Assembly (NCBI GenBank): GCA_903789495.1
Contig: CAIFEQ010000001.1
Coordinates: forward strand, 122,559 to 186,558
Source: an uncultured Erysipelotrichaceae bacterium
GTDB lineage: Bacteria; Bacillota_I; Bacilli_A; Erysipelotrichales; Erysipelotrichaceae
Direction: 5' to 3'
Length of the DNA: 64,000 bases
The notes beneath the pieces are model-generated. The model was given only the letters and a program-made list of their open reading frames with translations, was not told the origin of the DNA and did not search any database. This document shows, piece by piece, positions 18,470-50,598 of this stretch (positions are counted from its first letter, which is position 1; every line of letters starts with the position of its first letter). A program made the position numbers and the translations under genes.

Positions 18470-20416
18470 ATAGGGTAGAGTGAGCCGCGTGAGCGGCTCG
18501 ACCCTCCCATTGCACCGTACGTACGGTTTTCCGTATACGGCGCTACGTCTGTATTTATGCACGGATACTGAGATAGTAGTTCAGCGGGTTGACCAGTCCT
18601 GGCCGACCCGTTTTCCTGTTTGGCAGGGCCAGTACTTTCGGGCTCAGGGCGTAGTTGACCACATCCATTCCGCATCTCCGATACCAGCCCAGGCGGGAAT
18701 TGGCCACCTTGAAGGTATCTTCTTCTGTGAAATGACAGTGAAACGTCCGATTGAGTTTCTGCAGATTGATATCGATTCTCTTCGGTCTTTTCCACTGCTT
18801 GATGATGATCACTCTGACCTTGTGCCGCATCCATTGACCGAACCGGTCAAGAAAGCCCTTCATATCTCCTATGGAGAAATAATTGATCCAGCCTCTCATG
18901 ATCTGATTCAGCTTTGTGAATGTGACTGCCAGCGGTCTGGACACTGCCTCTCTGCGTTTCAGAACCAGCCTGACTTTGGCGATCAGACGTTTCTTCCTGT
19001 CATCGCTTGGCTTGCAGTGCCATCCATCCTTACTGCTCTTCCAGTACGTAAAGCCCAGGAACTCACTGTTCTGCGGTCTGCCCACCTTTGTTTTGGTCGG
19101 ACTGACCTTCAGGAACAGCTTCCGTTCCAGCCACGAGGCTGCCGACTTCATCACCCTGTTTGCGGCCATCTCGCTTCCGACAAAGATATCGCAGTCATCT
19201 GCGTATCGAACAAAGTGCAGTCCTCTGCTCTCCAGTTCCCTGTCAAATTTATCCAGATAGATGTTCGCCAGTATCGGCGATAACGGGCCTCCCTGCGGGA
19301 CACCCATTTCCGAGGGTGATACGAGACCGTTTTCCATCACGCCGGCCTTCAGGAACGACCTGATGAGATGGAGCGTCTTCCTGTCGTTCACCTTCTCTCT
19401 CAGAATGGAGATCAGCTTGTCGTGATTCACCGTGTCAAAGTACTTCTCAATGTCCAGATCGATGACCCATTCATACCCGCTGTTCAGGTATTCCAGCACC
19501 TCTTCCATGGCGCCATGCGCACTCCGGTTCGGGCGGAATCCATAGCTGTGTTCACTGAACGTACTGTCCTAGATCCGGCTCAGTACCTGGGCCACGGCCT
19601 GCTGAATGACCCGGTCCGCGACCGCCGGGATGCCCAGCGGCCTTTGCTTGCCGTTCGGCTTGGGTATATAGACTCTGCGGACCGGTTTCGGTCTGTACTG
19701 CATGTTCCGGATTTCTGCTTTGATTTCTTCCCCATGACGGGCAAAGTATTCTTCCAGTTCTCCGGTTTTCATCCCGTCCGTTCCGGCGGCGCCGTGATTC
19801 CTCTTCACCCTCTGAATCGCTTCTCTCAGGTTCTGATCACTCAGGATCACTTCAATGAGTTCCATTCCGCTGTGCCACTCCTTTCTATTTACAGAGAATT
19901 CCGAAATCGTCCCCGGGCCTTTTGCCGTCAGAAGCTACGTTCTTCTGCCTCAGGCTTATTCTCCCTTTCGGACTGTTCGGATCTTGTGTATAGTGGGGCA
20001 CACTATACAGACATTAGGTCCTTCGCTCCGCTTCCATTACAGAAGTTTCAACGCTACTGTGACCTCAGCTGACTTCTTGCGATAGACCTTTTCCGACCGG
20101 AGTTTTACGATAGCTGTTTGAAAGCGTTTCGGATTTCTCCGTCCGCAAGATCTCCCGGGATAAGACATACATCCTTCGTTTCCACAGCCCTCCGATTTAC
20201 TGCTTTGGCCTTACGTCTGTCTTTAGGACTTTGGCTTGTATGGCAGCCTTATCCGCCTCACAGCCTCATCGGATTCCTGTGCGTAGGCTCAGAAACCTGC
20301 TAGCCACTGCTTTCACCCATGACGTCACCGTCACCGGCTGGTGGTTCACTTCACTTGGCGACAAATACCTGTGATCCGCATTTCAGCGGACTGGATGTAT
20401 GCCATGCCCGGCATAC
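18470..20416 (-). mobile_element. Group II intron (class C-like), about 1.95 kb
   Basis: Candidate 5' end GTATGCCGGGCATGGCATACATCCAGTCCGC at 20416; candidate domain V AGCGCCGTATACGGAAAACCGTACGTACGGTGC and domain VI AGGGTCGAGCCGCTCACGCGGCTCACTCTACCCTAT ending at 18470; encodes an intron RT; immediately 3' of an intrinsic terminator. Confidence 0.85.
18555..19865 (-). pseudogene. Group II intron reverse transcriptase/maturase interrupted by an in-frame TAG at 19571-19569
   Basis: ORFs 19569-19865 and 18555-19508 are in the same frame; joined protein ..QAVAQVLSRI*DSTFSEHSYGFRPNRSAHGAMEEVLEYLNSGYEWVIDLDIEKYFD..FVRYADDCDIFVG. Confidence 0.9.
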
Positions 20417-29421: not shown

Positions 29422-31065
29422 ATGAAGTTTTCGGATTACAGAAACCGGCTTCGCAGGGCAGCCGGAGCATTGCTTGTTTCTGGCCTTGCAGTATCATCTC
29501 TGACGGTTACACCGGCAAATGCCGAGACCGTAAACTACTCTCTGGAAACCGAGATGTGGGCAGATCCCTATGATCTGTACCCGGACAGTCTGACGACGAC
29601 GGTTTCTCTGCAGCTGCCTTCCGCCGATGCGCGGATCAACAGCGACGTGGTTTTTGTCGTGGATATTTCAGACTGCGTCGATGAAACGCTGACGTCTCTG
29701 CAGAACATGCTGGTTCAGCTGAAGGAAAGCCAGGACAGACAGGGTGTCACCACCCGGATCGGGGTTGTCTTTTTCCGAGGCAGTGCCTACCGCTACCTGG
29801 AACTGGAGGAACTCACGGATACGGCCTACCAGCAGATCTATGACGCCATTTCCTATTATCTGACGATTCCGGAAGGTTCCCGGAACGATGCGATCCTGGC
29901 AGACATTGCGGAACGGAATACCGGCGACGCGGTGATTGCCAAAGGATCCAATCTGGACAGCGGGCTGCAGGCGGCCCAGGCCATGCTGCAGGAAGAAACC
30001 CTGCCGGGCAACAGCCAGTATGTCATTGCCGTCTCGGATGGCATCAGCTATCTCTTTGACGACGAGGAGGGCGATACCAAAGCCATCTATTCCGGCATTC
30101 AGGGCGATACGACGGTCACTTCCATCATGGCACTGTTCTATGAATGGGAAACCCGGTATAACTTTAACGGCGAAGATTATACCTACATCGGGGGCAACTT
30201 TACGCAGGCAGACTGGGACAGTCTGTTTGAAGAGATGCAGCTCAAGGTGGCCGCCGATGCCGGAGCCTATGACGTCAGTGTCCGGGCGGCTGCCGCACTG
30301 CATGCGGATTACCGGAATATGCCGCTGAGCATCATGGATGAACAGCACTTTCCGTATCTCCTGGGCAGTGAATCTTATCTCAATTCACATGCGGTCGGTA
30401 TTGAAAAGGCTCTCGTCGAGGCCTATGACACCTGGATGGAAATGGTCAATGCCGGGTATCAGTGTTTCTTTGTCAACCCGACCTTTGAGGACGCAACCGA
30501 TACTTTCCCGTATTTCTATACCCAGATGATGAATACCGCCTCCGGGCAGACCGGTACGGTGAACTTTGAAACCATCACCGCCCAGGCCATCAATGCCGTA
30601 GCGAGTGCCAGCATTCAGGATGTCATCAATCCGGAATTCGAGCTGAATCTCGAGGATGGCGTCGTACCGTTTACGATGCTCAGAGGCAATGAAGTCCTGA
30701 CCGGAACTGCCGATGCCAGCCTGGCCAATACCTGGAATTTCGGAGAACTGACCGATGACGGCGTCTATTCATACGTCGTGACCTACGATGCCTCGACCGG
30801 CACGATTGTCTGGGGCATCAACGTTCCGGTGGTCAAGGGGCAGGAACTGACACTGACCTACCAGCAGACGCTGAAGACGGCTGGTTCGGAACTGAAGGAA
30901 TATGCGGTCAGTACCTCTGTACCCTTTACCTACACGGATTCTCTGGGCCGTACCGGCAGCGGGACCTTTACGATCCCCAATGTGCTCTATCATCCCCCGG
31001 TGGTGATTCCGGTCACGACGCCGACCCCGGCAGGCCGGCTGGTTCCCGACACATCCGTGAAGTAA
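29422..31065 (+). CDS. Secreted VWA-domain surface (pilin-tip-like) protein
   Basis: Signal peptide ending in NAETVNYS; SDVVFVVDISDCVDETLTSLQNML..GVVFFRG..GSNLDSGLQAAQAML..YVIAVSDG; C-terminus TPAGRLVPDTSVK. Confidence 0.8.
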   Translation: MKFSDYRNRLRRAAGALLVSGLAVSSLTVTPANAETVNYSLETEMWADPYDLYPDSLTTTVSLQLPSADARINSDVVFVVDISDCVDETLTSLQNMLVQLKESQDRQGVTTRIGVVFFRGSAYRYLELEELTDTAYQQIYDAISYYLTIPEGSRNDAILADIAERNTGDAVIAKGSNLDSGLQAAQAMLQEETLPGNSQYVIAVSDGISYLFDDEEGDTKAIYSGIQGDTTVTSIMALFYEWETRYNFNGEDYTYIGGNFTQADWDSLFEEMQLKVAADAGAYDVSVRAAAALHADYRNMPLSIMDEQHFPYLLGSESYLNSHAVGIEKALVEAYDTWMEMVNAGYQCFFVNPTFEDATDTFPYFYTQMMNTASGQTGTVNFETITAQAINAVASASIQDVINPEFELNLEDGVVPFTMLRGNEVLTGTADASLANTWNFGELTDDGVYSYVVTYDASTGTIVWGINVPVVKGQELTLTYQQTLKTAGSELKEYAVSTSVPFTYTDSLGRTGSGTFTIPNVLYHPPVVIPVTTPTPAGRLVPDTSVK

Positions 31066-46936: not shown

Positions 46937-47054
46937 CGTTCTGCCGCCTTTCTTTTCCTTTGACTTATTTTGTCTGAAGATAATATGTATCTTCGGATAA
47001 TATTTGTCAATAAATAAAACACAGGTTCCGGAATATTCCTTTCTGGGCAAAAGA

Positions 47055-47082
47055 AAACCGCTGGCTCATCAGCTGCCAGCGA
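47055..47082 (-). terminator. Candidate terminator after adhesin gene
   Basis: AACCGCTGGC..GCCAGCGATT inverted repeat. Confidence 0.55.
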
Positions 47083-47141
47083 TTTCCTTTTCCCTGACCT
47101 GCATGCTGTCAGAGAGATTTCATGCAGTTCTTGATCTGTTG

Positions 47142-50100
47142 TTATTCGGTATCAGTCAGCGGCGCATCTGCCGTATTCGGCACGATGTGTCTTTCCTGCG
47201 TCGGCTTCTCGGTCTGTACCCACTTGTTGTTGATCAGGAATTCCTGATCACTGATTTTGGTAATGGTGACCGTGTATCCCGACATGGAGACTTCCGAAAC
47301 ACTGTAGCTTATTTCGTCACCCGTATCCGCATCGTACTTGGGAAGATCTGTCCAGGTATATGTCCAGTCGTTGTCCTCCGTCAGGCGGACCGTATCAGTG
47401 ACTTCCCCGTTCTTCAGGAGATTCACATCGGCATACTCACCGGTCTGTCCTTCCCATTCCTTGGTCACCGTGAGTTCTGTCAGTTCGATATTGGTTAGGA
47501 TGACCGTACCGTCGTCGTCGACAGCCTGAACGAGCTGATAGCCATCAGCGTCTTCCTCTTCGATCTCATAGCTGACGACTACGTTCGAACTGCTGTCATA
47601 GGTACTCAGATCCGTGAACGTATAGGTCCAGTCCATGTCTGAGGTGATCTGCTTCTGCTGAATGAGTGTCTTTGAACCATCCGTGTGGACCTGATACAGG
47701 TCAACGGTCACAGCATCCCCTTCAGTACCAAGCCACTTTTTCTCCACCGTCAGAGAAGTCGTATCGTGGTTGGAGTTGGTAATAATGAATTCATAGTCCC
47801 CTCCAACATTCTTTCCACCGGTCACAATGCTCTGGTAAGAGTTGTCTCCTGACGTCGCCGTTTCAACGACGCTGTAAACGATCTCTGTACCATCGGTGTT
47901 ATATTTGGGCAGATCCGTAAATGTATAGCTGAGATTGCCATCTGAATCCCGCTCAGTAATCACGGTTCCGGCATAGTCCTCAACAACAGTTTCATCTGCC
48001 AGCAGATTGACGGTAATGGAATCTGCTTCATCGCCGACCCACTGTTTCGTCACGCTCACATCTACAGTTTCCGACGTGTTCGTGTTGGTAATGGTAAAGC
48101 CTGCAGACTGACTGCCGGTATATGTGGTGGCATAGCTGTCGGTACTGCCAGTGATCACTGTTTCCTGTACCGTATACGTATATGCATTTCCATCGCTATC
48201 GGCAACTGGCAGCTCATCGAAACTGTCCGTCCACTGATTACTCGAATCCAATGTCAAGGTGCTGCCGGTGGCTACGCCGTCCCTATAGAGCTCGACAGTA
48301 ACGCTTTCTGCCGCTTCACCTTCCCAGTTCTTTGTCACAGAAACAGACGTGGTAGTCGTAGTGGTAGTGGTGGCAAGCCTGGCTGTTACAAGGTTCTGTA
48401 CCCACTGATAACCATAGTCAACGGTATTGACCGGGTTATTGGCAATGTAAAGGTCAACCTGGAACTCATCAGGAACTGCTTCCGTTGAAGTGTTTACTAC
48501 AGAAGAGTCGAACCGGGAAGATTTGCTTATGCCGACCAGCCACTTAAAGATATTTTCCACATCTTCCCAGCCCCAGACAGGGAGTACTCCGTAAATTTCT
48601 TTCAGATGTGTAATCCGATCGTCTGAAGAAAACCAGTCACCTACATTGGAATAATCGATGCCATCCGTGTAGTACCAGATCGCGCACTGTGTCGCGATCA
48701 TGAATGCATATTCTTTTCTCTGATCAATCAGAAGCTCGTAACTGTAGTTCTGATTGCTGCCATCATCCGCCGGTCCGATATCCATGGCGTCGTAGGGATA
48801 GCCGTAATACAGAACCTTTGCAATATTAGCCAGTACCGTGGAACTGCTGGCTTCTGATGACGGCTTTAACGGAACATAACCTTTGATATTAGGAGGATAA
48901 TAAAGCGGATTCGAATTTGGATTCAGTCCGGTGTAGTAATACATTTCTTCCGTCGTGACATCCGAGATCAGGCCGAACTGGTGGTAATAATTGCTCAGAT
49001 TGGAACCGATCGTATAGTAATAGTTCACGCAGTAGACGACATCGCTGCCGATCGTGTACTTCTGCAGTGCAGAATTTCTGATGCTGGTCCTGGACGGCGT
49101 ATAAATATACTCGGATTCAGACGGGATCCGAACATCGTCTGGTGTGCTGTCGCCTGATTCCGCAACCGTAAAGGTAACGGTTACAGGACCCAGTGTAATG
49201 GTATCCGAATCACCGGCCGGAGCAGTCAGGTTAAAGGTCGTCGAATAGGTCCCAGCTGAAAGACCGGTAACAGGCGTTACCGTTACGGTACCCGTCGAAC
49301 CGGCTGCGATGTTCTGCGCATTGTCCGTATTGACCGTGAAATTTGTATCCGAGTTGGTGGAAGTAAACGAAAGTGTTTCAGTACCTGTGTTGGTAATGGT
49401 AAGCGTCAGAGAGCTGACTGTTGAGTACCCGACCAGAACGGATCCGAGGTTGGAACTGTAGCTCTCCAGGCGTGCACTGTATTCCGACGTCGAATAGGCA
49501 GGGATTGTGACAGTCGTCGTTCCGGAGTAAACATTTCCATCGGCATCCACGAAACGGAAATAAGCCGTTAACTCTTCTGAACTTACAGATGTCACGGTAA
49601 AGGAAACCGGTGTATCTGCAGTCAGCTGAACCGGCGTACCGCTGAGGATTGCCTCATCGCTGGGAGCCGTTTCCGAAGAAGGCTTGACCACATAGTATAA
49701 ATAGCCATCAACAGTGGAATTTGCCCTCAGGGTCACGGAAGTGGCGGTCAGTCTCGATTCCTCAATCGTGATGGTTCCCTTCTCAATGATCGAGACAGGA
49801 CCTTCACTTACTTCTGTTGTTGCGGTTCCATAAGCAGCGAGTGACAGAGAGGATGTTGCATACTGATTGCCATCCTCATCAATGTATTTGACATAAATGT
49901 CTTTAGCCGTCTGCGTGGACTGGGCAATCGTAATCGTGTTCGTTCCTGCCGTGCAGGCCGTTGCATTTCCTGTCACATCCACTGGTGCAGCAGCGCCAGA
50001 CTCCTGAACCGCATAATAGACGGTCCCGGCCATGTCCGGATCCACCGTCAAGGTAATAGCCGTCCCATCGTCGTTCCAAGCCGCCGTATAGGACACGGTC

Positions 50101-50183
50101 GGGTCATCAGCCAGTACCGTGGTCGGTGCCAGACCGATGAGCATGCACAACGTCAAAAAGACTGCTCGAAACTTCTTTGCCAT
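47142..50183 (-). CDS. Thioester-domain/Cna_B surface adhesin
   Basis: Signal peptide MAKKFRAVFLTLCMLIGLAPTTVLA; thioester-domain-like VVYCVNYYYT ... ATQCAIWYYTDGID; four Cna_B-like repeats (VTKNWEGEAAESVTVELYRDG, VTKQWVGDEADSITVNLL, VEKKWLGTEGDAVTVDLYQ, VTKEWEGQTGEYADVNLLKNG). Confidence 0.85.
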   Translation of the reverse strand: MAKKFRAVFLTLCMLIGLAPTTVLADDPTVSYTAAWNDDGTAITLTVDPDMAGTVYYAVQESGAAAPVDVTGNATACTAGTNTITIAQSTQTAKDIYVKYIDEDGNQYATSSLSLAAYGTATTEVSEGPVSIIEKGTITIEESRLTATSVTLRANSTVDGYLYYVVKPSSETAPSDEAILSGTPVQLTADTPVSFTVTSVSSEELTAYFRFVDADGNVYSGTTTVTIPAYSTSEYSARLESYSSNLGSVLVGYSTVSSLTLTITNTGTETLSFTSTNSDTNFTVNTDNAQNIAAGSTGTVTVTPVTGLSAGTYSTTFNLTAPAGDSDTITLGPVTVTFTVAESGDSTPDDVRIPSESEYIYTPSRTSIRNSALQKYTIGSDVVYCVNYYYTIGSNLSNYYHQFGLISDVTTEEMYYYTGLNPNSNPLYYPPNIKGYVPLKPSSEASSSTVLANIAKVLYYGYPYDAMDIGPADDGSNQNYSYELLIDQRKEYAFMIATQCAIWYYTDGIDYSNVGDWFSSDDRITHLKEIYGVLPVWGWEDVENIFKWLVGISKSSRFDSSVVNTSTEAVPDEFQVDLYIANNPVNTVDYGYQWVQNLVTARLATTTTTTTTSVSVTKNWEGEAAESVTVELYRDGVATGSTLTLDSSNQWTDSFDELPVADSDGNAYTYTVQETVITGSTDSYATTYTGSQSAGFTITNTNTSETVDVSVTKQWVGDEADSITVNLLADETVVEDYAGTVITERDSDGNLSYTFTDLPKYNTDGTEIVYSVVETATSGDNSYQSIVTGGKNVGGDYEFIITNSNHDTTSLTVEKKWLGTEGDAVTVDLYQVHTDGSKTLIQQKQITSDMDWTYTFTDLSTYDSSSNVVVSYEIEEEDADGYQLVQAVDDDGTVILTNIELTELTVTKEWEGQTGEYADVNLLKNGEVTDTVRLTEDNDWTYTWTDLPKYDADTGDEISYSVSEVSMSGYTVTITKISDQEFLINNKWVQTEKPTQERHIVPNTADAPLTDTE

Positions 50184-50598
50184 ATGTAAAGCAATGCCCC
50201 CCTTCAATTTTTTTACTACGTTTTGAGTATACATGAATCGGTTATAAATTCCACATCATTTGTAGTAAATTTGGTGCACCAATTTTGCTAATATTTTGAC
50301 ATGAATTTTTTGTATACAGACCGGGGACATTTGTTTCTCAGAAGAAGGATTTTGGCGGTTTTTTTAACACTTCATTCAGCCGATGCAACAGGCAGTTCCG
50401 TTCCACTGTCCAAAAGCGCAGAAACCGCCGTTTCAGAAGACTTCCGCCATGAAAACAGCAGTGAGAAACTGTCCTGCAAAACACGATGAATCAGAGGCAG
50501 AAGACACCCGGGCCTTGATGAATAATGATAGTAATAAGGAAAAACTGAGTGAGCATGCATTCATGCTGTTTACATGCATGGCACTAAGCAGACTGAAA

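Follow-up and report, generated by a model that had tools for sequence, protein, structure and literature searches.

The adhesin gene at 47142-50183 of the 64,000-nucleotide stretch of Erysipelotrichaceae DNA analysed here (the window) raises the question of how a predicted covalent adhesin is displayed when its C-terminus carries no hydrophobic segment. Sorting signals are recognised as a pentapeptide followed by a hydrophobic helix and a basic tail, and annotation tools as well as the textbook model are built on this arrangement. The gene, its parts and a second bare-tailed gene of the window are listed below.

47142..50183, minus strand: thioester-domain/Cna_B adhesin gene (upstream ATG at 50234 also possible)
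50109..50183, minus strand: signal peptide MAKKFRAVFLTLCMLIGLAPTTVLA (from translation)
49485..50099, minus strand: two alike beta-rich modules of about 90 residues (by eye; boundaries approximate)
49194..49457, minus strand: Ig-like module, weakly HYDIN/ASPM-like (Pfam, under cut-off)
48615..49037, minus strand: thioester domain, residues 400-540 (Pfam, NCBIfam, profile against structures)
49029..49031, minus strand: codon of Cys402, predicted thioester cysteine (position and alignment to solved domains)
48687..48689, minus strand: codon of Gln516 in TQCAIW, predicted thioester glutamine (position and alignment to solved domains)
48081..48344, minus strand: Cna_B domain 1 with Lys/Glu/Asn motif (domain search and motif)
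47775..48059, minus strand: Cna_B domain 2 with Lys/Glu/Asn motif (domain search and motif)
47499..47750, minus strand: Cna_B domain 3 with Lys/Glu/Asn motif (domain search and motif)
47226..47471, minus strand: Cna_B domain 4 with Lys/Glu/Asn motif (domain search and motif)
47145..47183, minus strand: bare sorting-type tail VPNTADAPLTDTE, abutting the stop codon (VPNTAD at 47166-47183)
47046..47094, minus strand: hairpin with T-rich flank, probable terminator (hairpin inspection)
29422..31065, plus strand: second bare-tail protein of the window, tip-pilin-like, with VWA and GBS104-like Ig domains, ending GRLVPDTSVK

The adhesin is encoded by an intact single open reading frame at 47142-50234 on the minus strand. 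A start at 50183, which yields the typical signal peptide MAKKFRAVFLTLCMLIGLAPTTVLA, is more likely than the in-frame upstream ATG at 50234; no lipobox was seen in the translation of this peptide. All residue numbers (Cys402, Gln516, 400-540 and the others) are counted from the start at 50234; the Ig-like match, sub-threshold in Pfam, spans residues 260-347. Elsewhere in the window, two adjacent ORFs of 337 and 121 amino acids (18558-19934, minus strand) resemble, by eye, the halves of a split group II intron reverse transcriptase.

The sequence-only reading had proposed a thioester domain (TED) with its Cys and Gln, followed by four Cna_B-like stalk domains, and both proposals are supported. 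The Pfam TED model (PF08341) matched residues 400-540 with 43 bits against a cut-off of 22 (E=6e-11), and the NCBIfam TQXA model reached 33.3 bits against a cut-off of 30.4; Cys402 sits in VVYCVNYYY and Gln516 in ATQCAIW. A profile built from three TEDs (that of the window, that of a second TED protein, which this genome encodes on contig C2, and one of genome G003) matched solved TEDs, with 5a0g best (E=1.1e-8), followed by 5a0d, 4c0z, 2xi9, 5dcq and 5a0l. In the profile alignment, Cys402 and Gln516 fall on the thioester Cys and Gln of the solved domains, the pairs with 5a0g being YCVN-type/YCFN and TQCAIW-type/TQRAVW; in 5a0d, the CpTIE domain carries the mutation Cys138Ala (PMC4450167). Four Cna_B domains were identified with Pfam (E=2.5e-58), and the Lys, Glu and Asn of the isopeptide triad were located by motif residues in all four. 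The AlphaFold model of the TED had a mean pLDDT of 34.7, a confidence too low to read Cys-Gln proximity, and the Cna_B model was likewise weak. No close relatives of the window TED region were found in named genomes.

By its predicted domains, the window gene is a member of the thioester adhesins, and its product probably grabs its target via a covalent bond; we infer that thioester and isopeptide bonds form in it. The protein resembles the TED adhesins SfbI, FbaB and CpTIE (PF08341; PMC4450167) in its TED Cys, its TQxxxW-type Gln and its isopeptide-type stalk, but differs from them in that the TED is internal, after about 340 residues of Ig-like modules, and in that a classical wall anchor is absent.

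The absence of a recognisable wall anchor, as claimed earlier, stands for the hydrophobic and basic parts of such a signal but not for its pentapeptide. The last residues, NNKWVQTEKPTQERHIVPNTADAPLTDTE, include no hydrophobic segment, and the end IVPNTADAPLTDTE contains VPNTA, a sortase-type pentapeptide which had been overlooked and which is followed by 8 residues to the C-terminus without a hydrophobic domain. Only the pentapeptide-like part of a classical LPXTG-type signal (pentapeptide, hydrophobic helix and basic tail) is therefore present. Past the stop codon no hydrophobic segment was found in any frame, as read-through, +1 and +2 all close within 5-10 codons, and a frameshift or read-through that would restore an LPXTG-type end was ruled out for the window gene on this basis. 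Where a terminator had been noted after the gene, a hairpin was located at 47046-47094 whose 3' flank is rich in T; it is a probable terminator, which the terminator scan missed because its loop is 9 nt. Since about 12 surface proteins encoded in this genome finish with a VPNTA-like pentapeptide, the C-terminus is probably a reduced sorting signal rather than no anchor.

These proteins, which carry Cna_B, TED or VWA/GBS104-like domains and are encoded on eight contigs, end 2-11 residues past a VP[ND]Tx-like motif without a membrane segment; their number was obtained by searching a draft genome in 60 contigs with family models and patterns, and may be incomplete. Nearly all Cna_B-bearing proteins of the genome share this type of end; one is without the motif (contig C14, end YRSGG) and one runs off contig C35. 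Bare ends of Cna_B proteins are PVPNTADAPDPFR, RIVPDTADSRAE, YPVPDTGAEP, PPVPDTRDKY, PVPDTSDAPAQTEQAQR, AVPNTSDRP and PVPDTGDRPADS, with the variants KVVNTSDK (the second TED protein, contig C2) and NVPETSVS; contig C32 begins within a gene whose end is RLVPNTADKG. The linkers ahead of the motif are unrelated, the residues past it are not conserved among the bare tails of this genome, hairpins often follow directly, and TAA, TGA and TAG are all used as stop codons. Shuffled tails predicted 0.26 bare ends in 119 ORFs and ten were observed, in a set that over-represents Cna_B loci; the ten were counted with a motif somewhat looser than the strict one, which gives nine. The exact VP[ND]TxD pattern had 11 DNA matches genome-wide versus 5 with the reversed control. 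Of the 11, eight correspond to the bare ends above and two fall within a pilin on contig C52. That pilin bears the sole classical tail identified in the genome, VPNTGDSGENTFSRLGAGLLGLTMISALLLQKKTRRSE, and adjoins two class B sortases. A profile of the TM-type tails of the genus gave 2 matches here (the C52 one being listed), versus 17 in G003, 10 in G007 and 10 in G048.

Frameshift and read-through were also rejected for the other bare-tail genes, where no hydrophobic segment lies downstream in any frame with one exception on C32, an out-of-frame hydrophobic stretch located behind the terminator hairpin. The reading frame leading to the PVPDTGDRPADS end on C2 is interrupted or shifted further upstream. 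At 59.6-60.2 kb of this contig (L306; L062 near 3915), an in-frame TGA separates the two domains of a Cna_B protein, the downstream part of which carries PVPDTGDRPADS.

Bare ends were also found in the genus, which comprises 70 genomes (closest full-length IleRS match 71% identical). Long ORFs of G062 end VPNTADKG, VPNTADRN, VPNTADRG and VPNTADKS, and others end VPDTADR (G060), VPNTADR (G068), VPNTADTGE (G006) and VPNTADK (G020/G046, in a protein without an obvious signal peptide). The mutually related TED proteins of G082 and G002 end GFQIPNTSDK and GFKIPNTAVKN, both keeping a bare IPNT. A second protein of G060 has the same C-terminal module but a full TM tail, a TM-tailed protein of G019 resembles the bare-tail protein of G006, and VWA relatives in G007 and G001 retain TM tails; proteins of one kind can thus carry either a bare or a TM tail, with the pentapeptide kept. 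Many further VPxTxD pattern matches in other genomes, which no plausible gene contained, were discounted as chance occurrences.

Two further observations concern tails of the genus. Four otherwise different proteins of G062 (L296-L299) share a C-terminal repeat-like module of about 60 residues (VTFLDxxGNTVSVQ...), after which come VPNTAD[KR]x and the stop codon. Cna_B proteins of G020, G046 and G019 (L226, L227 and L031) have a weakened tail, VPNTGDNTPAGLRRGPTLPEFIMLCGFTAFGRH and close variants, in which the motif is kept and the hydrophobic part is poor; such tails could be intermediate between TM and bare.

Five sortase matches, four of which are described here, were obtained in this genome with the class B model, where the Pfam search had given one. 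Two class B sortases on C52 (187 and 173 bits) reach the TIGR03064 cut-off and lie beside the pilin, which has isopeptide-linkage domains. The sortase on contig C24 scored 99.5 bits with the class B model and has TLQTC and a following Arg. Solved class B sortases are matched by this type, and its recurrence throughout the genus, in varying gene neighbourhoods, suggests a housekeeping role; no close relatives of the C24 sortase were found in named genomes. A further match on C26 (L277 2897-3744; 73.6 bits) is apparently split, its N-terminal half lying in another frame than its C-terminal half, and is either a decayed gene or a sequence error. In this genome, no bare-tail gene is adjacent to a sortase gene; in G068, a C24-type sortase comes immediately after a bare-tail gene, from which a hairpin separates it. 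Separately, the G046 protein at L301 680-3640, which ends VPNTADK, and the G077 protein at L283 4138-5667, directly behind a class B sortase gene, have similar N-termini (MTIEELLKLIFIEEK and MSLEEFLKYILTEVR) and no obvious signal peptide.

The closest precedent is AbpA of oral streptococci, which ends LPKTS-AVK without a hydrophobic domain and loses amylase binding when LPKTSAVK, or AVK alone, is removed (PMC4974636). The class B sortase SrtB cuts AbpA between T and S and is responsible for its anchoring and polymerisation, and the supernatant contains AbpA monomer as well (PMC4974636). A soluble LPETG peptide likewise enters the wall of S. aureus via SrtA without a hydrophobic or charged tail (PMC3929722), although the same paper cites the work of others in which proteins exported from the cytoplasm depend critically on the helix and the charged tail. 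In the papers that were searched, no membrane-free sortase substrate other than AbpA was found. Both systems have a secreted adhesin ending in a pentapeptide and a few residues, without a hydrophobic domain, and a class B sortase in the genome (AbpA/SrtB, NF040525). They differ in motif, LPKTS with a needed AVK in AbpA versus VP[ND]Tx without a conserved AVK here, and in number, AbpA being one substrate whereas about a dozen unrelated adhesins have bare tails here. The domain content is also unrelated, the bare-tail genes of this genome are unpaired with a sortase gene, and anchoring would here follow by analogy. Sortases of this genome scored 87, 75 and 58 bits with NF040525, the AbpA-SrtB model, far below its cut-off of 200. 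The window tail VPNTADAPLTDTE does not match LPKTxSAVK and for this reason was not classed as AbpA-type; at best it works like AbpA.

On balance, and somewhat beyond an even chance, we consider the window protein to be a covalent adhesin whose sorting signal is reduced and membrane-free, and which is anchored by a class B sortase. This reading builds on the domain content, the Cys/Gln alignment, the intact gene, the recurrence of bare VPxTx ends in genome and genus, and the class B sortase genes, while cleavage, anchoring and the choice of sortase are inferred from AbpA. The protein would be secreted, and a thioester between Cys402 and Gln516 of its TED would trap an amine of the target, the TED being presented by a stalk of four isopeptide-locked Cna_B domains. 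The predicted signal would consist of the pentapeptide and a few polar residues, without stop-transfer helix or basic tail. One of the lineage's class B sortases would then cut the secreted protein behind the T (VPNT/A), as SrtB does for AbpA, and the cut protein would, by the same analogy, be joined to the wall or to another subunit or pilin; some of the protein may remain in the medium.

If the lineage had instead given up wall anchoring for most of its adhesins, the product would be a soluble, shed covalent adhesin and the VPxTx ends unused remnants, as the missing stop-transfer segment, the 2 TM-type tail matches against 17 in G003 and the partial release of AbpA (PMC4974636) might suggest. 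Remnants should decay, yet about 12 genes with unrelated linkers have retained the pentapeptide and lost the rest of the signal, and the genes end cleanly with no hydrophobic residue left in the downstream DNA. Together with the bare ends kept by the related TED proteins of two species (G082 and G002) and the several class B sortase genes that the genome retains, this makes shedding unlikely, though worth serious consideration.

Distinctly improbable is a role at the pilus tip, in which TED and VWA proteins would be joined to a backbone pilin by the pilus class B sortase, as are streptococcal TED tip pilins, the missing helix reflecting a quick hand-over. The bare-tail proteins are too many and too different for one tip, and the tip genes are scattered outside the C52 locus, even though that locus has two class B sortases adjoining a pilin with isopeptide-linkage domains the VWA protein of the window has a match to the GBS104 tip-pilin domain and the solved TED relatives include two pilus ancillary proteins of streptococci (2xi9, 4c0z). 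These ancillary proteins, which have related TEDs and a class B pilus sortase, Spy0129 (PMC3019223), comparable with the C52 sortases beside their pilin, differ from the bare-tail proteins, which are scattered over the genome and lack a TM sorting signal. That the bare ends are artefacts of sequencing, assembly or annotation, through a frameshift, a lost C-terminus or a recoded stop, might be suspected in a draft of 60 contigs but is very hard to credit, given the same ends in about 12 genes on eight contigs and in further genomes, the lack of a downstream hydrophobic segment in any frame (the sole exception being behind a hairpin), the use of all three stop codons and the refutation of an artefact for the window gene.

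Under the reading of a membrane-free, sortase-anchored adhesin, the window protein may attach to the wall in a manner known so far from one streptococcal protein. What is new is the bare tail repeated over a surface repertoire, a variant of the membrane-free sorting signal, and this is the more interesting part than the TED head. A separate and wider reading, to which we give slightly less than an even chance, is that the whole TED/Cna_B/VWA tip-type repertoire is displayed via membrane-free VPxTx signals and class B sortases, as a separate, genome-wide second instance after AbpA. If this is true, the hydrophobic stop-transfer part of sorting signals would be dispensable as a general strategy. 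The many pentapeptide-only adhesins in one genus make the need of membrane retention for sortase anchoring testable in living cells, with the bare tails as natural candidate substrates for class B sortases, and annotation may wrongly label surface proteins of these species as secreted.
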